From Vallitalea guaymasensis (lineage in GTDB: Bacteria; Bacillota; Clostridia; Lachnospirales; Vallitaleaceae), in assembly GCF_018141425.1 (NCBI RefSeq), contig NZ_CP058561.1, positions 3,844,001 to 3,908,000 on the forward strand: DNA of 64,000 bases, in the 5' to 3' direction. Shown here piece by piece: positions 47,905 to 58,649 of this stretch (its first letter is position 1; every line of letters starts with the position of its first letter). Both the position numbers and the translations under genes were made by a program. The notes under the pieces were generated by a model. The model saw only the letters and a program-made list of their open reading frames with translations, had not been told where the DNA came from and ran no database searches.

Positions 47905-48969
47905 ATGGAAAAGGTTTTAATGAAGGGTAATGAAGCCATAGCAGAAGCTGCAATACAAGCTGGATGCAAATATTTTTTTGGTTATCCTATAACACCACAA
48001 AATGAAATTCCAGCATATATGGCTAAAAAATTACCTAAAATCGGAGGTGTTTTTTTACAAGCAGAATCCGAGGTTTCAGCCATAAATATGGTATACGGAG
48101 CAGCAGGAGCAGGAGCAAGAGTTATGACATCATCATCAAGTCCTGGAATAAGTCTAAAACAAGAGGGCATTTCATATATAGCAGGAGCAGGGTTACCATG
48201 TGTTATAGTTAACATAGTAAGAGGGGGCCCAGGTCTTGGAGGAATCCAACCAGCTCAGTCAGATTACTTCCAAGCTGTCAAAGGTGGAGGACATGGAGAT
48301 TATAATCTAATCGTTTATGCTCCATCAACTTTACAAGAGATGGTTAGTCTTACAATGGAAGCATTTGATATAGCTGATATGTACAGGAATCCAGTAATGA
48401 TTCTTGGAGACGGAATGCTTGGACAAATGATGGAACCAGTTGAATTCGTTAAACCACCTGCTAGAGATTTACCTGCGAAAGATTGGGCTACAACAGGCTG
48501 CGATGGAACTAGAAAACCTAATATTATTAATTCATTATATATAGACCCAGCTGAACTTGAAAAAGAAGTAGATAAGACATATAAAAAATATAAACTCATA
48601 GAGGAAAAAGAAGTAAGATATGAAAAATACAATTGTGATGATGCAGAAATAATCATAACTGCATATGGAACAACAGCAAGAATAGTAAAAAGTGTAATAG
48701 AAATGGCAAAAGAAGAAGGAATCAATGTAGGATTAATAAGACCTATAACATTATGGCCATTCCCTTATGAACCTGTTAGAGAATACGCTGACAAAGATCA
48801 TGTGAAAGCATTCATGAGTGTTGAAATGAGTAAAGGTCAAATGATAGAAGATATAAGACTTGGAGTGAACGGAAAAAAAGACGTATATTTTTATGGCAGA
48901 ACAGGTGGTATGGTACCAACTCCTGATGATATTATGGCAGAGATTAGAAAAATAGTGAAGGAGGTATAA
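47905..48969 (+). CDS. vorB: 2-oxoacid:ferredoxin oxidoreductase alpha subunit (VorB-type)
   Basis: 354 residues. The N-terminal pyrimidine-binding domain has [29 protein letters not shown]-type sequence (residues 6-31), typical of VorB/KorA subunits. [20 protein letters not shown] and GGPGLGG follow, and the C-terminal domain II contains [20 protein letters not shown]. It oxidatively decarboxylates 2-oxoacids to acyl-CoA with the other subunits. The assignment to 3-methyl-2-oxobutanoate (from valine) rather than 2-oxoglutarate is favoured by the nearby ilvE but not proven. Confidence 0.9.
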
Positions 48970-48971
48970 TA

Positions 48972-49709
48972 ATGAAAGTAGTATTTGATAAACCAAAGGC
49001 CCTAACTGAAACTCCTTTTCATTATTGCCCTGGTTGTACTCATGGAATAATACATCGTTTAGTTGCTGAAGCAATAGATGACCTTAATATACAAGATAAA
49101 GCTATAGGTGTAGCACCTGTAGGATGTTCTGTTTTTGCATACAAATATTTTGGCTGTGATATGCATGAAGCAGCTCATGGTCGTGCTCCTGCAGTTGCAA
49201 CAGGTATTAAAAGGGTTTTACCAGATAACATAGTTTTTACATATCAAGGTGACGGAGATTTAGCATCCATCGGAGCAGCTGAGATTGTTCATGCAGCAGC
49301 AAGAAATGAAAATATTACTGTAATTTTTGTTAATAATGCAATATATGGAATGACAGGTGGACAAATGGCACCAACAACATTAGTTGGTCAAGTAACAACT
49401 ACATCTCCTTATGGAAGAGATCCAAAACTTGCAGGATTACCTATAAAAGTATCAGAAATGTTGGCTACTTTGGATGGAGCATATTACATAGAAAGAGTAT
49501 CAGTTCATGACGTGAAACATATAAAACAAGCTAAAAAAGCTATTAAGAAAGCTTTCGAGAATCAAGTTAATAACAAAGGATTTTCATTAATTGAGGTGTT
49601 ATCAACTTGCCCTACCAATTGGGGAATGTCACCTTCTGAAGCACTTGAATGGGTTAAAGATAGCATGGTTCCAGTATATCCTTTGGGTGTTAAAAAGGAG
49701 GGGGAGTAA
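48972..49709 (+). CDS. 2-oxoacid:ferredoxin oxidoreductase beta subunit (TPP-binding)
   Basis: 245 residues. The start is the ATG two bases after the alpha-subunit stop. The TPP/magnesium motif is [20 protein letters not shown] with [11 protein letters not shown] (GDG...N form), and the N-terminal block [14 protein letters not shown] contains two conserved cysteines. This is the usual length for KorB/VorA subunits that lack their own cluster domain. It forms the active site with the alpha subunit. Confidence 0.92.
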
Positions 49710-49711
49710 CA

Positions 49712-50248
49712 ATGACTGAGCAACTAATTATTGCTGGATTTGGTGGTCAAGGTGTTATGTCTATTGGTCAAATACTAACATATGCAGGAATGACTGAAAA
49801 AAAAGAAGTGTCATGGTTACCATCCTATGGACCAGAAATGCGTGGCGGAACAGCAAACTGTAATGTAATTGTATCAGACAAACCAGTTGCATCACCTATA
49901 GTAACCAAAGCTACAGCAGGATTGATGTTAAACAAACCATCATTGATAAAATTTGAAAATAGTGTCAAGGAAGGCGGTAATCTATTAATTAATAGTTCTC
50001 TGATAGATATAAAAGCAACTAGAGATGATATAAATGTATATTATATCAAAGCTAATGAGATTGCAGTTGAACTTGGTAACACAAGAATAGCTAATATGGT
50101 AATGCTTGGTGCTTATTTGGAACTAACCAAAGTTGTAAGTATAGATTCAGTTATTGAAGCACTCAAGAAAGTATTAGGAAAATCAAAAGAACATCTTATT
50201 CCAATTAATATAAAAGCCATGGAACGTGGAGCTGAATGTGTTAAGTAA
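49712..50248 (+). CDS. 2-oxoacid:ferredoxin oxidoreductase gamma subunit
   Basis: 178 residues with the typical gamma-subunit start IIAGFGGQGVMSIGQILTYA and the block SWLPSYGPEMRGGTANCNVI. It likely binds CoA or assists subunit assembly. It starts two bases after the beta subunit and ends 9 bp before a strong terminator, so it is the last gene of the operon. Confidence 0.92.
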   Translation: MTEQLIIAGFGGQGVMSIGQILTYAGMTEKKEVSWLPSYGPEMRGGTANCNVIVSDKPVASPIVTKATAGLMLNKPSLIKFENSVKEGGNLLINSSLIDIKATRDDINVYYIKANEIAVELGNTRIANMVMLGAYLELTKVVSIDSVIEALKKVLGKSKEHLIPINIKAMERGAECVK

Positions 50249-51067: not shown

Positions 51068-51167
51068 ATTCTACAATCTATATCATAGATAAATTATTCA
51101 ACAATCAAATGAAAACTCAAACTAGTTATCTTAACTGGCTTGAGTATATTTTATAATAAAAATTAAT

Positions 51168-51240
51168 TGTTTCGTATAAATTCTCTAATATGGTGAGAAA
51201 GTCTCTACCCTGTAACCGTAAAATACAGGACTACGATTTT
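51168..51240 (+). ncRNA. Purine riboswitch aptamer (guanine type, C74)
   Basis: The conserved purine-aptamer core is present. P1 is TTCGTA/TACGA (51171-51176, 51232-51236). P2 is TTCTC/GAGAA (51181-51185, 51195-51199) with loop TAATATGGT. J2/3 is GTCTCTACC. P3 is CCTGTA/TACAGG with loop ACCGTAAAA. After P3 the ligand-pairing position reads A-C-T-A, so base 51231 is C, which selects guanine/hypoxanthine rather than adenine. It lies in the 586-bp leader of the adenine deaminase operon. Confidence 0.93.
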
Positions 51241-51301
51241 ATAGTATAATTAGTTAGTGCCAATTTATTATTTATAAATAGGTGCTTTATAGATTAAAGG
51301 A

Positions 51302-51334
51302 ATCAGTTACTCATAAACCAACTGATGTTTTTTT
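51302..51334 (+). terminator. First leader terminator candidate
   Basis: ATCAGTT (51302-51308) pairs with AACTGAT (51320-51326), followed by GTTTTTTTGG. It is downstream of the aptamer and may terminate part of the transcripts. Confidence 0.65.
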
Positions 51335-51376
51335 GGTCTTACTGAAATTTATGCAATGCATATCTACTATGAATCA

Positions 51377-51406
51377 AGAGACTTTCTAATAGAAAGTCTT
51401 TTTTTA
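51377..51406 (+). terminator. Second leader terminator with antiterminator partner in aptamer
   Basis: AGACTTTCT (51379-51387) / AGAAAGTCT (51391-51399) with a 3-base loop and a T7 tract. The 11-base 5' arm agagactttct (51377-51387) is perfectly complementary to agaaagtctct (51196-51206) in the aptamer P2/J2-3 strand. Aptamer folding and antitermination are therefore mutually exclusive, a ligand-off switch. Confidence 0.75.
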
Positions 51407-51521
51407 TATGTTCAAGGAAAAATCCTTACTTTCTATTTTAAAATACATACCAGACTACTTAATATGAAACTTCAAAAAACCAAATAAAATTATATATAAT
51501 CGTCATAAGGAGTCTTGTGTA

Positions 51522-53261
51522 ATGCTTGTAGATAGAATAAAAGCAGCAACAAAAGAAGTAAAAGCGGATTTAGTAATTAATAATGTCAATATCGTAGATG
51601 TATTTAATCTAGATACATATATATCAGATATAGCAATCAAAGATGGATATTTTGTTGGAATAGGTGAATACAAAGGGAAAGGTGAATTAGAAGTCGATGG
51701 AATTGGTAAAACCATCATTCCAGGCTTTGTAGATGGACACTTGCACATAGAATCCTCTATGGTTACGCCAATTCAATACTCTAATGCAATATTGCCTTTT
51801 GGAGTAACGACTATTATTGCTGATCCTCATGAAATAGCTAACGTAAGTGGAGTTGATGGAATAAAATACATGATGGATATGGCTAAACATGTGCCATTAG
51901 ATGTCAATATAATGCTTCCTTCATGTGTCCCAGCCACTAGTGTTGAGAGGGGTGGTGCAATTCTAAAGGCTAAAGACCTAAAACCACTATATGAAGAAGA
52001 GAGTGTTCTAGGGCTTGCAGAAGTTATGGATTTTCCAGCGGTAGTATCTTGCAATGAGGACATGATAGAAAAATTGGAAGACGCTAAAAACAAAAATCGT
52101 ATTATCGACGGTCACTGTGCAGGATTTGATATCAATAAGTTGAATGCTTATGCAACAGCAGGAATTAAAACTGACCATGAATCCACGACAGCTGAAGATT
52201 TAATAGAAAGAAACAGAAGAGGAATCCACACTTTGGTTAGATATGGTTCAGTATGTAAAGATCTACCTAATATTATACCAAGTGTCAATGAGAGAAACCA
52301 TAGGTTATTATGTTTTGCAACAGATGATAAACATCTTGACGAGCTAGTGACTATTGGTGGAGTCAATTATAATGTAAAACTAGCAATCAAGTCAGGTCTT
52401 GATCCAATTATAGCTATATCAATGGCAACTTATAATACTTGCCAATGTTATAAACTCCATGAAAAAGGAGCAATAGCTCCAGGGTATATTGCAGATTTTT
52501 CAATAGTAGATAATATTCAGGGCCTTAACATTATTGATGTATATAAAAATGGAAAATTAGTAGTAAAAGATAAAAAGCTGATAGATGAAGTTTCAACAAA
52601 TATATGTAAAAAACCAGAGAAACTGATAGCTTCCATAAATATACCTGAAATAAAAAAAGAAGATTTGATTATTGATATGAAAGATCATCAGAAAGCTAAT
52701 GTCATAGAAGTAATCAACAATGGAGTAGTAACTAAGAAATCTATTGAAAAGGTCACAACCAATGCTCAAGGACACTTTCAACCAGATATAGAAAAAGATC
52801 AGCAAAAAATTCTAGTAATTGAAAGACACAGGAAAACTGGCAACATAGGCAAAGGTATACTAAAAGGTCTAAAGCTGGAATCAGGAGCAATAGCAACTAC
52901 TATTTCTCACGACTCTCATAATCTAATTGTTGTTGGAACTAACGACAAGGATATAATGAAGGCGATTGAAGCTATAGAAGAGATGCAGGGTGGTATCGTT
53001 GTTGTAAATGATAATGAAGTACTGGCTAAGTTGAATCTTGAAATCTGTGGATTAATCACTACTAGGGACTCTGAAACAGTAATAAAAGATTTGGGAAAGC
53101 TTAATAAGATGATAAAGATAATTGCACCAAAAGTTGATATTAATCCATTATTGACACTTTCCTTCATGTCACTTGTAGTAATACCTGAAATCAAAGTTTG
53201 TGAAAAAGGTTTATTTGATTTTTCAACCTTCGATTTTATCGATATTTACGTGGAAGAATAA
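51522..53261 (+). CDS. ade: Adenine deaminase
   Basis: 579 residues, amidohydrolase superfamily. The metal-binding motif is VDGHLHIESSM (about residue 70), and the remaining blocks (FGVTTIIADPHEIANVSG, GHCAGFDINKLNAYATAGI, DHESTTAEDLIERN, FATDDKHLDELV) are those of bacterial Ade. It converts adenine to hypoxanthine and ammonia. AAGGAG lies 13 nt before the ATG. It is the first gene under the purine riboswitch, followed 45 bp later by an MtmB-like gene and then a purine permease. The C-terminal domain is of normal length. Confidence 0.95.
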   Translation: MLVDRIKAATKEVKADLVINNVNIVDVFNLDTYISDIAIKDGYFVGIGEYKGKGELEVDGIGKTIIPGFVDGHLHIESSMVTPIQYSNAILPFGVTTIIADPHEIANVSGVDGIKYMMDMAKHVPLDVNIMLPSCVPATSVERGGAILKAKDLKPLYEEESVLGLAEVMDFPAVVSCNEDMIEKLEDAKNKNRIIDGHCAGFDINKLNAYATAGIKTDHESTTAEDLIERNRRGIHTLVRYGSVCKDLPNIIPSVNERNHRLLCFATDDKHLDELVTIGGVNYNVKLAIKSGLDPIIAISMATYNTCQCYKLHEKGAIAPGYIADFSIVDNIQGLNIIDVYKNGKLVVKDKKLIDEVSTNICKKPEKLIASINIPEIKKEDLIIDMKDHQKANVIEVINNGVVTKKSIEKVTTNAQGHFQPDIEKDQQKILVIERHRKTGNIGKGILKGLKLESGAIATTISHDSHNLIVVGTNDKDIMKAIEAIEEMQGGIVVVNDNEVLAKLNLEICGLITTRDSETVIKDLGKLNKMIKIIAPKVDINPLLTLSFMSLVVIPEIKVCEKGLFDFSTFDFIDIYVEE

Positions 53262-53306
53262 TATTTTATACATAAAAACTATAACTAAATAAAAAGGAGT
53301 AATGAT

Positions 53307-54674
53307 ATGCATTATTTAGAACTATTAGAGAGAGCACACAATGGTGAAAAGATTGAAAAAGAACAATGGGATGTAGAGTACATAGTAATCAAGACAATGG
53401 AGTTAGTTTCAAAATATGATTTAAAATTTGATAGTAATACGATTATTCCAACAGATGATACTCTTATTGAAAATACATTTAAAGCAGCGAAAGAACTGAT
53501 TTCAGAAATTGGTGTATATTACTTGTCAGAAGGTAGACGAATATATCTTACTGAAGAAGAAATAGATGAAGCATTGAAAAATGCTAAACAAGAGATTCTA
53601 ATGGGAGAAGGAAAAGATGCTGTAACATTATATGCAAGAAAACCAGAAGATACAAGATATCCACTAGTTTGGGCTGGAAATCCAGGATGTCCAACTCCAG
53701 AAGATATTTTCAAGCCAACAGTAAAAAGCTGGGCGAAGGAAGAGGTTGTTGATCTTATCACATGTGGTTCATTAACTACAGTAGATGGTTATCCTGTAAG
53801 AAAACACGAAGCTTCCGAACTCTTGGCAGTTAGAAGAGAATTAGATTTATTACGTAGCGCTACAAGAGAAGTTGGTCGTCCAGGAATGGGTATGTTAGCA
53901 GCAGAAAGTGCAGTTTCAGAAATAGGTGATTTGGCGGCTGTAGGTTCTGACCGTTTAAGACCATGTGATAGTCACTTGACAGTTATGCTTAATGAATTGG
54001 TTATTGATAGAGATAATATGGTTCGTACTGCAAGCAGTATAGATTATGGTATGAGAAATGCAGGACTTACTTGTACAATGGTTGGTGGATTAGGTGGAGA
54101 TGCAGCAGGTTCAGCTCTCTTGATGATTGCATCTATTATGGCAGCTAATATCTTATGTAGAGCTGATTACCATCTTTGCCATCCAATTGACTTAAGACAT
54201 GTTGCAACTTCAACTCGTGGAAGTATGTATGTACATAGTATGGCTTGTCAAGCTTATGCAAATCATGCACCAAATATTATATTCTGTGACATATATCCAA
54301 AAAGTGGAGCCTTAACAAAAGAATTATTATATGAGGTAGCAGCTAATGCTATTACAGCAACTGTTTCTGGAGGTCATCTAGAAGGTGTTGGTGCTGCTGA
54401 TGGATTAGTTCCTCATGGTACTGGTTTAGAAGTGCGATTGATGGGTGAAGTAGGACGTGCTGTTGTAGATAATAGATTAACTCGTGAAACAGCCAATGAA
54501 ATAGTATTAAAATTATTAGATAAATATGAGCATGTATTTAGTTTAGAAGGTGGAAATCCAGGTAAACCATTTAACGAAGCATATGATATGGAAAAAATTG
54601 AACCAGTAGAAGAATGGGTCAACATGTATGAAGAAGTCAAGAAAGAATTAAATGAAATGGGATTTAATATTTAA
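53307..54674 (+). CDS. MtmB-family methyltransferase homologue without pyrrolysine
   Basis: 455 residues, about the length of methylamine:corrinoid methyltransferase MtmB, and alignable by eye over most of it: KEQWDVEYIVIKTMELVSKY, IIPTDDTLIEN, IGVYYLSEGRRIYLTEEEID, then the block GRPGMGMLAAESAVS. In archaeal MtmB the same place reads GRPGMGV-Pyl-GPETS. Here Leu197 replaces the amber-encoded pyrrolysine and no in-frame TAG occurs. LNELVID is kept, but the later Glu-rich active-site loop (GGYAGGIEE) is GGLGGDAAG here, so substrate and chemistry probably differ. The gene lies between adenine deaminase and a purine permease behind a guanine-type riboswitch, suggesting a purine-related substrate (inference). 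Confidence 0.85.
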   Translation: MHYLELLERAHNGEKIEKEQWDVEYIVIKTMELVSKYDLKFDSNTIIPTDDTLIENTFKAAKELISEIGVYYLSEGRRIYLTEEEIDEALKNAKQEILMGEGKDAVTLYARKPEDTRYPLVWAGNPGCPTPEDIFKPTVKSWAKEEVVDLITCGSLTTVDGYPVRKHEASELLAVRRELDLLRSATREVGRPGMGMLAAESAVSEIGDLAAVGSDRLRPCDSHLTVMLNELVIDRDNMVRTASSIDYGMRNAGLTCTMVGGLGGDAAGSALLMIASIMAANILCRADYHLCHPIDLRHVATSTRGSMYVHSMACQAYANHAPNIIFCDIYPKSGALTKELLYEVAANAITATVSGGHLEGVGAADGLVPHGTGLEVRLMGEVGRAVVDNRLTRETANEIVLKLLDKYEHVFSLEGGNPGKPFNEAYDMEKIEPVEEWVNMYEEVKKELNEMGFNI

Positions 54675-54719
54675 TTTTTCTATAAAGTCATTACAATAAC
54701 ATGAAAAGGAGACTACAAA

Positions 54720-56249
54720 GTGAAAGAGAGAAAATTACCTTTATTTAGAAGTGGTGACATTGGTGGTATTGCCTATACTTTAGCTGGCAATATAGTTAAC
54801 TACATCATTGTAATCGGTGTGTTGCTATACGTATTTGAATGGCCTGAGTATCTAGTATTTGGAAGAGTCATTCCAGGTATGTCCATTGGACTTATGGGTT
54901 CAGGTTTCTATTATGCATGGATGGCTAACAGACTGGCAAAAAATGAAGGACGATCAGATGTAACAGCACTTCCTTCAGGAGTATCTACTCCAGCAATGTT
55001 TGTTTACTTATGGGGAGTTATCGCACCCCTTAACTATGCTATCGGTGATCCAGAAAAAGTATGGATGGTAGCAGTTGCGGCAACATTTTTAGGAGGAGTA
55101 ATTGAAGCTTTAGGTAGTTTTGTTGGACCATGGCTAAGAAAGTTCTTGCCACGTGCGGCTTTACTTGGAACAGTTGGTGGTATTGCGCTAGTATGGATGA
55201 TCAACAAAGGATTCTATGATGTATATGCTGATCCAATCCTTGGAATGCCTGTATTGATAATTGCCATCATTGGATTAATTGGTGGATATGTATTTCCTAA
55301 AAAGATACCTGCGTTACTTGTAGCTGTTGTCGGAGGTATACTCTATGCTATTGTATTAGGTCGTGTAAAACCGGATGTAAGTGGTTTTGGATTTACGCTT
55401 ACTAATCCTGTAGATGGAGTAAAGGCGGTTATAAATGGTATGAAGCTTATAGGACCATACCTTGCAGTTATTATACCTATTCAAATATATAACTTCATAG
55501 AGACAATGGATAATGTTGAATCTGCAATAGCCGCAGGTGATAAATATAATGTCCGTGAAGCTCAGATTGCTGATGGTTCAATGACTATGTTATCAGCTAT
55601 TTTTGGTGGCGTTGTTCCTAACACTGTATGGCTTGGTCATCCTGGACTAAAAAAAGGTAAAGCAGGTTCTGGATATTCTTGGATATCTGGACTGATATTA
55701 GGAGCTGCTGGTATCTTTGGAGCTTATGCATTCATTAATTCTATAATGCCTCCTGTAATTGCAGCAATCACATTTGTTTGGTGTTCAATAACTATTATCG
55801 TACAGGCATTTAGAGAAGCTAGACCATTCAGACATGGTGCAGCAGTTGTTGTTGCATTCATACCACATATTGCTGATTACATATATACTGAGGTAACATT
55901 AGCGTTATCCTCCCAAGGTATTTATGAGGTTACACCAGAGATTGCTTCGGCTCTGACTAATGAAGGGGTAATGTGGGCAGGAGTAACAGAACTAAAATAT
56001 GGAGCTATTTTGACTGGTATGTTATGGGCGGCTATCACTGCTTTTATAATTGATAAACGCTTGGATAAAGCGGGTTATGTTGGATTGGTGGCAGCTGCAT
56101 TGGCTCTCGTTGGTTTTATTCATTCACCATCCTTGGGAATAAGCTTGAACCCTTATTTCTACGGTTACCTAATAATGGGTATCATATGTATTGTACTCAA
56201 TCTATTTAAAGGTAGTTTCACTGTGCCTGATGACTATGACTATATTTAA
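54720..56249 (+). CDS. NCS2-type purine/xanthine permease
   Basis: 509 residues with about 12-14 membrane helices, starting at GTG 54720 with AAAAGGAGA upstream. Blocks such as RSDVTALPSGVSTPAMFVYL, LPRAALLGTVGGIALVWMI, IYNFIETMDNVESAIAAGD and GVVPNTVWLGHPGLKK match nucleobase permeases of the xanthine/uracil and guanine/hypoxanthine type. Riboswitch control and the deaminase neighbour support a purine substrate. It follows the MtmB-like gene by 45 bp and is the last gene of the operon, with a terminator 60 bp downstream. Confidence 0.92.
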   Translation: MKERKLPLFRSGDIGGIAYTLAGNIVNYIIVIGVLLYVFEWPEYLVFGRVIPGMSIGLMGSGFYYAWMANRLAKNEGRSDVTALPSGVSTPAMFVYLWGVIAPLNYAIGDPEKVWMVAVAATFLGGVIEALGSFVGPWLRKFLPRAALLGTVGGIALVWMINKGFYDVYADPILGMPVLIIAIIGLIGGYVFPKKIPALLVAVVGGILYAIVLGRVKPDVSGFGFTLTNPVDGVKAVINGMKLIGPYLAVIIPIQIYNFIETMDNVESAIAAGDKYNVREAQIADGSMTMLSAIFGGVVPNTVWLGHPGLKKGKAGSGYSWISGLILGAAGIFGAYAFINSIMPPVIAAITFVWCSITIIVQAFREARPFRHGAAVVVAFIPHIADYIYTEVTLALSSQGIYEVTPEIASALTNEGVMWAGVTELKYGAILTGMLWAAITAFIIDKRLDKAGYVGLVAAALALVGFIHSPSLGISLNPYFYGYLIMGIICIVLNLFKGSFTVPDDYDYI

Positions 56250-56519: not shown

Positions 56520-58649
56520 ATGTTAAGAGGATTCAGAAAGTTTTTATGCCTATTATGCGCTATATCCTTGCTTGCAATACCTACACGTAATGTTACATAT
56601 GCACAAGACAATGCAAACTTTTATGTTGGGACAGGTATTTACGATATCACAGGACCAGCCGCAGAAGTAGTAATGATGGGTTATGCCAGCAATGAACAAA
56701 TAACAGAAGGGATTCATCTTAGACTTCGGTCAAGGGCATTTATAGTTGCTGATAACACCGATAATAAGAGAACTGTGTTTGTTAGTGCAGATTTGGGACA
56801 ACTTTTTCAGGGAGTCAAACAGGGCGTAATGAGGAAATTGCAGGAGACATATGGTGATTTATATAGAGATGAAAACGTTATGTTAAGTGCTACTCATACT
56901 CATTGTGGTCCAGCAGGTCATTCTCATTATGCTTTATATAATATTTCAGCATATGGTTACATTGAAGAAAATTATGACTGTATAGTAGATGGTGTATATA
57001 ATTCTATAGTAAGAGCTCATAATAACCTTGAAACAGGTTATATTGAGATTAATTCTTCTACTCTTAATGGGACAAGTATCAATAGGTCTATTGTAGCCTA
57101 TAATAACAATGATGAAGATGAGAGAAATATTTTTACAGATGATATTGATAGGGACATGGTAATGCTTAATTTCAAAAACAGTAATGGAGACTTATTGGGA
57201 ATAATAAATTGGTTCCCAATACATCCAACATCTATGGGTAATACAAATCATTATATATCCAGTGATAATAAAGGATATGCATCATATCTATATGAAAAAA
57301 CTATGGGTACTGATTATATGGCAGATAAAACATTTGTAGCTGCATTTGCCCAAAGTGATTGTGGTGATGTATCTCCGAATATTCATGGCGGAGAACTAGG
57401 ATATGGAGATAATGATTTTGAAAGTACGAAATTTGCAGGAGAACAGCAATACTTGAAGGGACTTGAACTAAGTAATTCTGCAAATACTATTGTAAGTGGT
57501 AACATTGATTATAGACATAAATACATAGATTTTTCCAACATAAGTGTAGCTCCAGAGTATACTAGTTATAAGTGCAATAGCGAACTGCCAAATGAAATAA
57601 CAGAATCAGACCATAAGTTGACCTATGATGCTGCTATAGGATATTCATTTGCTTGTGGAGCAGAGGATGGTCCTAGTAATATAGATATGTTCCATGAGGG
57701 AATGACTGCAGATGATTATCCAATAGATGAGGGATGCAACCTAGTAAAGACTGCTCAACATTTTTTGAATATAATTCCGGAAATCAATACTGTCAATGGA
57801 TTGAAATATCCAGAACTATGGGAACAGCACTATCCAAAACCAATACTTTTTGCCACTGGAAAAGGAGAACCTTATCCTTGGACTCCAGAAATATTGCCTA
57901 TACAGATTATGAAAATAGGTCAATTAATCTTAGTGGCAGTTCCAGCTGAATTCACCTCTATGTCTGGTAGAAGGCTAAAAAGAATAGTCAAGCAGACTAT
58001 GGACAAAGATTCTAATATAGACCATACCGTTGTTTTAGCAGGACTCTCCAATGCCTATAGTGGTTACGTAGCTACCCAGGAAGAATATGATGTACAGCAT
58101 TACGAAGGAGCGTCCACTCATTTTGGAAAATGGACATTACCAAGCTATTTACAAGAATTCCACAAAATAACTAATGACATGAAGAATAATGTAGCAACTG
58201 AACCAGGTCCTACACCTAGAGATTTGAAAGACGAACAAATGTGTTTTCAAACAGGAGTTGTACTGGATAATGTTCCTATAGGTAAGGATTTTGGAGAAGT
58301 TGAAGAAGACGTAAACTCTTCTTACAACATTGGTGATGATGTATCTGTTTCCTTCTGGACTGGTCATCCCAAGAATGATCTAAAAACTCAATCAACTTAT
58401 CTAGAAGTACAAAAACGAGTTGATAATCAATGGGTAACAATCGCTAATGATTGGGATTGGGAGACTAAATACAGATGGATAAGAAAAGATCCAGTATGGG
58501 GTAGTTCTCTAGCAAAAGTAGAATGGACAATACCTAACGATACTTTGCCAGGAACATACAGAATTCTTCACCATGGTGCATATAAAAATGGATGGACAGG
58601 TGATATCATACATTTTGATGGATTATCAAGTGAATTTCAAATAAATTAA
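56520..58649 (+). CDS. Secreted neutral ceramidase
   Basis: 709 residues. A signal peptide (residues 1-29, ending near TYA) precedes the ceramidase domain: FYVGTGIYDITGPAAEVVMM, the metal-binding block LSATHTHCGPAGHSH, and INRSIVAYNNN, which corresponds to the catalytic NRSP-x-AY-x-NN motif. Ser190 is therefore the probable nucleophile; the usual Pro after it is Ile here. The C-terminal roughly 150 residues form the Ig-like domain of the family (SVSFWTGHPKNDLK; WTIPNDTLPGTYRILHHGAY). It hydrolyses ceramide to sphingosine and fatty acid outside the cell. AAGGAGG precedes the ATG. It could complement the GH30 enzyme of this window in glycosphingolipid breakdown. Confidence 0.9.
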   Translation: MLRGFRKFLCLLCAISLLAIPTRNVTYAQDNANFYVGTGIYDITGPAAEVVMMGYASNEQITEGIHLRLRSRAFIVADNTDNKRTVFVSADLGQLFQGVKQGVMRKLQETYGDLYRDENVMLSATHTHCGPAGHSHYALYNISAYGYIEENYDCIVDGVYNSIVRAHNNLETGYIEINSSTLNGTSINRSIVAYNNNDEDERNIFTDDIDRDMVMLNFKNSNGDLLGIINWFPIHPTSMGNTNHYISSDNKGYASYLYEKTMGTDYMADKTFVAAFAQSDCGDVSPNIHGGELGYGDNDFESTKFAGEQQYLKGLELSNSANTIVSGNIDYRHKYIDFSNISVAPEYTSYKCNSELPNEITESDHKLTYDAAIGYSFACGAEDGPSNIDMFHEGMTADDYPIDEGCNLVKTAQHFLNIIPEINTVNGLKYPELWEQHYPKPILFATGKGEPYPWTPEILPIQIMKIGQLILVAVPAEFTSMSGRRLKRIVKQTMDKDSNIDHTVVLAGLSNAYSGYVATQEEYDVQHYEGASTHFGKWTLPSYLQEFHKITNDMKNNVATEPGPTPRDLKDEQMCFQTGVVLDNVPIGKDFGEVEEDVNSSYNIGDDVSVSFWTGHPKNDLKTQSTYLEVQKRVDNQWVTIANDWDWETKYRWIRKDPVWGSSLAKVEWTIPNDTLPGTYRILHHGAYKNGWTGDIIHFDGLSSEFQIN

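Follow-up and report, generated by a model that had tools for sequence, protein, structure and literature searches.

Analysis of a 64,000-nucleotide stretch of the Vallitalea guaymasensis genome (contig NZ_CP058561.1, positions 3,844,001 to 3,908,000; hereafter the window) revealed an operon in which a gene encoding an MtmB-family protein without pyrrolysine is located between the genes encoding adenine deaminase (ade) and a permease, behind a purine riboswitch. The MtmB-family protein is proposed to depend on a corrinoid protein and to remove methyl groups from N-methylated purines, making the bases available for salvage, a reading to which a probability of roughly 0.58 is assigned and for which substrate and reaction are suggested by genomic context. 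The layout described in the initial annotation, with ade, an MtmB homolog and a permease gene behind one guanine-type aptamer and separated by 45-bp gaps, was confirmed. Genomes are referred to below by G numbers (G000 being the host genome) and DNA stretches by L numbers (L004 being the stretch of the congener G170). The features of the locus, in window positions, are:

51152..51253, + strand: purine riboswitch aptamer, guanine type (Rfam RF00167, 80 bits), kept in congener L004
51196..51206, + strand: aptamer strand AGAAAGTCTCT, proposed anti-terminator arm (putative function), the exact 11-nt complement of 51377-51387
51377..51405, + strand: terminator-like hairpin (stem 51379-51387 / 51391-51399) and T-run, with its 5' arm complementary to the aptamer
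51522..53261, + strand: ade, adenine deaminase, 579 aa (TIGR01178 equivalog; PF01979 and PF13382)
53307..54674, + strand: MtmB-family protein without pyrrolysine, 455 aa (PF05369), proposed methylpurine:corrinoid methyltransferase
53895..53897, + strand: codon TTA of Leu197, at the pyrrolysine position in the alignment to 1l2q
54720..56249, + strand: permease, 509 aa, GTG start, family not assigned by profiles, predicted fold SLC26/UraA/UapA-like

Membership of the MtmB family is established by a PF05369 match (331 bits, E 1.4e-98, against a cut-off of 25) that covers residues 4-452 of 455, and by an AlphaFold2 model from 43 sequences (pLDDT 95.2) that Foldseek aligned over the full length with M. 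barkeri MtmB (1nth/1l2q; TM 0.96, rmsd 1.3, 33% identity). As noted in the initial annotation, the residue aligned with Pyl202 of the M. barkeri enzyme is L197, no in-frame TAG is present in the window mtmB, which ends in TAA, and the active site is altered; TAG read-through is therefore ruled out. Positions 229/259/333 of M. barkeri MtmB (E/E/Q), which we take to be pyrrolysine contacts although a literature search yielded no confirming paper, correspond to L224/L254/D328 in the window protein; the window protein retains both the GRPGMG motif that precedes the pyrrolysine site and E200, the Glu located three residues beyond that site. The pyrrolysine MtmBs examined (5/5) have TAG (X), E, E, and Q at the four positions, and the window protein lacks both the pyrrolysine encoded by an in-frame TAG and the contact residues that mark a monomethylamine methyltransferase. 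Residues L197, L224, L254, D328, D221, H223, Y288, H289, and H292 are invariant in 79/79 sequences of the clade of close relatives described below, and because of this invariance the pocket looks like a fixed and different one, not a decaying one, and a degenerate pseudogene is ruled out.

Regarding the riboswitch, the RF00167 match compares with a gathering score of 37 and is the sole match in the window above a gathering score. The specificity position of the aptamer is a C (GACTA; read from GGACTACG), presumably the mark of the guanine type, and the same C is found in the aptamers of L221, L240, L136, and L137. By its RF00167 structure and specificity C the window aptamer is a guanine riboswitch, with a predicted ligand. 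The region 51160-51412 has a fold z-score of -4.1, and the aptamer strand, the GACTTTC/GAAAGTC hairpin and the T-run all recur in congener L004; a second hairpin near 51302 of the window was not seen in L004 by eye. We infer an OFF switch, in which bound ligand would free the terminator arm. Downstream, the ade product exceeds the TIGR01178 cut-off (586 bits against 472.5), and by their coordinates the gaps between ade and mtmB (53262-53306) and between mtmB and the permease gene (54675-54719) are 45 bp each. Neither a corrinoid protein gene nor genes of the reductive uric acid cluster are present in the window operon.

Close relatives of the window MtmB were obtained by a genome scan with a five-sequence alignment, which yielded 94 relatives; the best 80 of 94 (49-65% identity to the window MtmB) were retained; a scan with a tight three-sequence alignment, the patterns of which were N-terminal, found nothing. 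Together with the three genus members, the 76 sufficiently long loci make up a single branch of 79 rows (SH-aLRT 100) in a tree that omits the rows of 13 distant loci and two pyrrolysine MtmBs; row L015, whose frame had been misread, was dropped from an earlier alignment, and L048 was placed differently in two trees, with weak support. The clade includes Lachnospiraceae (many from gut or rumen), Chloroflexi, Spirochaetes, and Planctomycetes. In two of its loci, L221 and L240, a purine riboswitch (55.9 and 51.2 bits) lies directly 5' of mtmB with no ade between, the end of the aptamer match being 85 nt and 64 nt from the ATG, respectively, and mtmB is followed by PnrA-like ABC genes in L221 and by a permease gene in L240.

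Genes encoding one of three transporter types were detected, with our own HMMs and clusters, at up to 6.5 kb from mtmB in 67/80 clade loci, namely the permease (25/80) and a PnrA-like ABC transporter (26/80), both on the mtmB strand, and an ECF transporter on either strand. Pfam, run on few clade loci, identified Bmp in L183 and L221 and cobalt/ECF-type domains in L202, which is one of several Chloroflexi and Spirochaete loci (L202, L209, L223, L229, and others) in which mtmB is followed by a three-part ECF transporter. The ade gene was detected in 8/80 clade loci, and the six of these that were tested are all above the TIGR01178 cut-off; the chance expectation is 0.43 in 1.28 Mb, assuming one ade per 3 Mb, and four of the eight loci are from Blautia kin. 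In these four, ade lies upstream of mtmB in the same orientation, separated from it by ABC genes, in L174, L225, and L226 it is on the opposite strand, and in L210 a run of genes encoding MtxC, MtmB, Ade, and a xanthine dehydrogenase-type protein lies on one strand.

More distant MtmBs without TAG were represented by 27 stretches from the phylum sample, short or split matches (G725, some of those of G712, and others) being left out, and a corrinoid protein gene is present in all 27. Our own HMMs detected purine-type genes in 15/27 of these loci compared with 4/20 controls (4/14 MttB and 0/6 pyrrolysine MtmB; Fisher p 0.018), a comparison that leans towards the test set because the HMMs were built from test loci, and in which several of the 27 share a genome or genus. 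Counting PucR, which occurs in 0/20 controls, the number becomes 17/27 with the addition of L048 and L058. The 8-oxoguanine deaminase is above its cut-off in L043 and L065 and just below it in L063, and curated names were obtained for PucR in L044, PnrA-like Bmp in L045, and Transp_cyt_pur in L053. In L062 (4382-16479) mtmB and mtxC lie inside an apparent reductive uric acid degradation cluster, with YgeY above its cut-off, a xanthine dehydrogenase-type gene (best model XdhA, 548 bits against a cut-off of 780), a DHO_dh with ferredoxin domains (UacX type), an SsnA-like amidohydrolase (340 bits against 444), and a carbamoyltransferase (best match ornithine carbamoyltransferase, 272 bits, and YgeW, 220, both below their cut-offs); the same set was found in L055 by our own HMMs. 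MtrH-like genes are present in other MtmB loci, as are genes that we take to be MtgA-like.

Regarding the corrinoid partner, the host genome contains one PF05369 protein, a MetH-size match, and two stand-alone corrinoid proteins, and no MttB was detected in it. The stand-alone proteins are encoded in a cluster of the order MtxC-MtxC-UroD-RACo-CobW (L009 9781-16072; G000 C1:1140.8-1147.1 kb), of which the two MtxCs, UroD, and RACo span 1140.8-1146.1 kb; there is no MtmB or MttB in this cluster, its UroD has a C-terminal extension, and an AraC-type regulator lies ahead of it (regulator, CobW, and MetH being labels assigned by eye). The host thus has both a corrinoid protein and a reductive activase. 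Within the genus, stand-alone MtxC accompanies MtmB in three genomes, and the other three, without MtmB, have only MetH-size matches; RACo, present in 6/6 genus genomes, failed as a marker of MtmB genomes, since those without MtmB also carry it. Among 36 of the 80 clade genomes, hand-picked mostly for long contigs, stand-alone MtxC was detected in 34/36 (PF02607, E 1e-3) and RACo in 35/36, the exceptions being G1073, without PF02607 and RACo, and G1061, with only a MetH-size PF02607 match, both metagenome-assembled. In the order, at least 35/193 genomes have MtxC (protein query, E 1e-25, counted by eye, one being a contig-end fragment), a figure obtained with a different query and from different taxa than the 34/36. 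MtxC is within the fetched stretch in 12/80 clade loci and is the direct neighbour of mtmB in L197 and several Chloroflexi loci; the second distal MtxC of the host (MtxC2) is 60% identical to that of L197, where the neighbours are a clade mtmB and permease, and the distal UroD is 54-59% identical to the UroD near mtmB in L049, L054, L057, and L059.

The initial annotation had suggested that the protein may work without corrinoid, and this is not supported, given the stand-alone MtxC of 34/36 clade genomes and the two of the host. Purine chemistry of another kind in the MtmB barrel, for example rearrangement or hydrolysis, would fit an operon without a corrinoid gene, the small share of clade stretches that include MtxC, and the MtxC status of G1073 and G1061, but it is improbable given how regularly stand-alone MtxC and RACo accompany the clade MtmBs, the metagenomic origin of both exceptions, the agreement of stand-alone MtxC with MtmB within the genus, and the loci in which MtxC adjoins mtmB. 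A corrinoid partner is likely for the window MtmB.

Within the order, PF05369 was detected in 3/295 genomes, which belong to a single genus (3/6 of its genomes); it was also detected in 3/391 of the class sample (the host genome and two with TAG) and in 28/398 of the phylum sample, and a scan for relatives among viral contigs and plasmids found nothing. Several observations weigh against purine demethylation as the role of the window MtmB, the first of them concerning the gene order and the riboswitch in other genomes. The initial annotation had called for a survey of the ade / MtmB-like / permease order; the exact trio was found in the window and one congener only, G170, which has the same riboswitch-ade-mtmB-permease order, and as a conserved unit the trio is rejected, while mtmB-permease and mtmB-ade recur elsewhere. 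In a third genus member, G177, mtmB and the permease gene are 78% and 85% identical to those of the window, and neither ade, in the 19.9 kb seen, nor a riboswitch was detected there. The riboswitch was found in just 2/80 clade relatives; Rfam proper was run on 12/80 clade loci, and a scan with a covariance model, R1, built from L221, L240, and four others, gave no riboswitch beyond its own building set.

The scarcity of the trio would agree with mtmB being a passenger in a purine salvage operon, in which ade and the permease gene are the targets of the riboswitch and the role of mtmB is unrelated or has been lost; purine riboswitches commonly control ade and purine permeases. Such a passenger role is nonetheless improbable, as mtmB and the permease gene stay together in G177 with neither ade nor riboswitch adjoining, mtmB is the first gene behind the riboswitch in L221 and L240, and the pocket is invariant in 79 sequences. 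Regarding the surroundings of the operon, the three genes upstream of it (window 47905-50248), read by eye as 2-oxoacid:ferredoxin oxidoreductase, are likewise found in G170 (L004), and the 709-aa secreted protein encoded on its 3' side (window 56520-58649), neutral ceramidase-like by eye, has a homolog there.

A second group of contrary observations concerns the neighbours of mtmB in other genomes and the known activities of the family. ECF transporters occur in 16/80 clade loci, and the Pfam names in the single one tested are of the cobalt type, with none related to purines; in 13/80 none of the three transporters was detected within 6.5 kb, some of the contigs being short. No purine-type genes were seen in 12/27 distant loci (some of them short), and such genes do occur in 4/14 MttB controls. 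MtqB from Methanococcoides, reported as the first non-pyrrolysine MtmB to be assigned a function and the sole characterized one found, acts on tetramethylammonium and choline (PMC13044021), and an MtmB-superfamily protein without pyrrolysine showed the highest fold change in dichloromethane-grown cells (PMC9768040). Together with the ECF loci, these reports would point to a substrate other than a purine, either a quaternary amine or a different N-methyl compound, handled in an MtqB-like reaction, with the purine neighbours and riboswitch reflecting nitrogen or one-carbon economy. This alternative is considered unlikely, though less so than the two preceding ones, in view of the purine riboswitch directly 5' of mtmB in L221 and L240, the L210 run in which mtmB is joined by ade and a xanthine dehydrogenase-type gene, and 8-oxoguanine deaminase, PucR, and urate-cluster genes beside other non-pyrrolysine MtmBs. 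In three Lachnospiraceae loci (L172, L175, L185) with none of the three transporters, mtmB is near genes labelled by eye as aldo/keto-reductase-like, MATE-type transporter, and flagellar.

Further contrary points concern the proposed partners. Six genomes of the same family without MtmB (G048, G069, G115, G131, G139, G190) have MtxC 69-80% identical to that of the host, so the distal cluster need not serve the window MtmB. Moreover, the UroD-family protein CdmB is itself a substrate enzyme (PMC13222342), and the distal UroD of the host could, by analogy, be one as well. The permease family was detected in 16/398 phylum genomes, of which just five have MtmB.

The initial assignment of the permease to NCS2 calls for a correction, as no NCS2 / NAT profile matched the window permease (Pfam gave only a chance match of E 4, NCBIfam none, and PDB sequences nothing credible), and the resemblance is confined to an AlphaFold2 model of low confidence (pLDDT 67.6), for which Foldseek listed SLC26 first, with UraA (8oo1, E 1.2e-6) and UapA (5i6c, E 2.3e-5). 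Among 15 permease-family loci, 8-oxoguanine deaminase/SsnA-type amidohydrolases were found in five and PucR in five. In L136 (7000-7101) and L137 (9520-9621) a purine riboswitch lies upstream of a homolog of the window permease, with no mtmB found in the stretch, and the permease family is itself purine-controlled in these places.

In the proposed demethylation pathway, the permease would import an N-methylated purine base, most likely methyladenine or methylguanine freed by RNA or DNA breakdown, and the MtmB-family protein would act as the substrate-binding (MTI) part, methylating a Co(I) corrinoid protein whose gene lies elsewhere in the genome; either MtxC of the cluster at C1:1.14 Mb is the probable partner, in a putative pairing. 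Tetrahydrofolate or a thiol may be the methyl acceptor: mlp-type UroD proteins have been proposed to function in methyl-sulfur or methyl-selenide metabolism (PMC10418091), while MtrH-like or putative MtgA-like genes are present in other MtmB loci. The demethylated base would enter salvage, with adenine converted to hypoxanthine through Ade, and plentiful guanine or hypoxanthine would close the operon via the riboswitch. Methyladenine is favoured for the window because ade recurs, and the 8-oxoguanine deaminase, xanthine dehydrogenase-type, and urate genes of other branches point to substrates that vary from branch to branch; the ECF neighbour may hint at a different heterocyclic substrate in Chloroflexi and Spirochaete lineages. 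More broadly, the odds appear slightly better than even for a widespread and so far undescribed route in anaerobes, by which N-methylated purines are demethylated by MtmBs of a pyrrolysine-free subfamily with a corrinoid protein and fed into purine salvage or degradation, under direct purine riboswitch control in some lineages.

Such a route would achieve without oxygen what oxygenases do in demethylating methylxanthines and methylated bases, would let anaerobes recover methylated purines released by nucleic acid turnover or supplied by the diet, and would reveal the changes that the MtmB pocket undergoes when it lacks pyrrolysine. In a published tree of 1,061 MtmB sequences, enzymes outside the named clades are of unknown function (PMC13044021), and the purine-linked branch would give part of that group a concrete, testable role. 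The undescribed activity suggested in the initial annotation is retained in part, in that action on a methylated purine would fit the context in other genomes, but pyrrolysine-free MtmB itself was already known (PMC13044021); as a whole, that earlier interpretation is partly supported. The MtmB family is known, and the purine-linked branch, spanning several phyla, appears to be new; no published link of MtmB or corrinoid demethylation to purines or a purine riboswitch was found in a search, among the titles and abstract openings listed, with most subscription journals outside its scope.

Compared with known systems, the window protein shares with Methanosarcina MtmB the full-length predicted fold, the GRPGMG motif, and the Glu after the pyrrolysine site, but has Leu in place of pyrrolysine, L/L/D in place of E/E/Q, and no adjoining corrinoid gene, and its operon differs in having a purine riboswitch, ade, and a permease gene. 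MtqB is likewise an MtmB homolog without pyrrolysine that works with a corrinoid protein, but it is archaeal, paired with MtqC, and acts on quaternary amines, as set beside the window protein by description only (PMC13044021). The MttB superfamily (MtgB and others) consists of barrel-fold corrinoid methyltransferases without pyrrolysine, to which the window protein would be alike if it is indeed a purine demethylase; it belongs to PF06253, however, whereas the window protein belongs to PF05369, and Foldseek matches of the window MtmB to MttB (7xcn, E 3e-10) and MtgB (9yce, E 2.8e-8) have a TM by query length of only 0.50-0.58. The component types of the reductive urate cluster (PMC12507026) match the set in L062, namely DHO_dh (UacX type), SsnA-like, carbamoyltransferase, and YgeY; a methyltransferase is not named in the available part of that description, whereas L062 has mtmB-mtxC alongside. 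With guanine riboswitches before purine salvage genes, that of the window has in common the RF00167 aptamer, the guanine-type C, and the downstream terminator-like hairpin, but differs in that it controls an MtmB-family gene and in that the proposed anti-terminator would use an inner aptamer strand.

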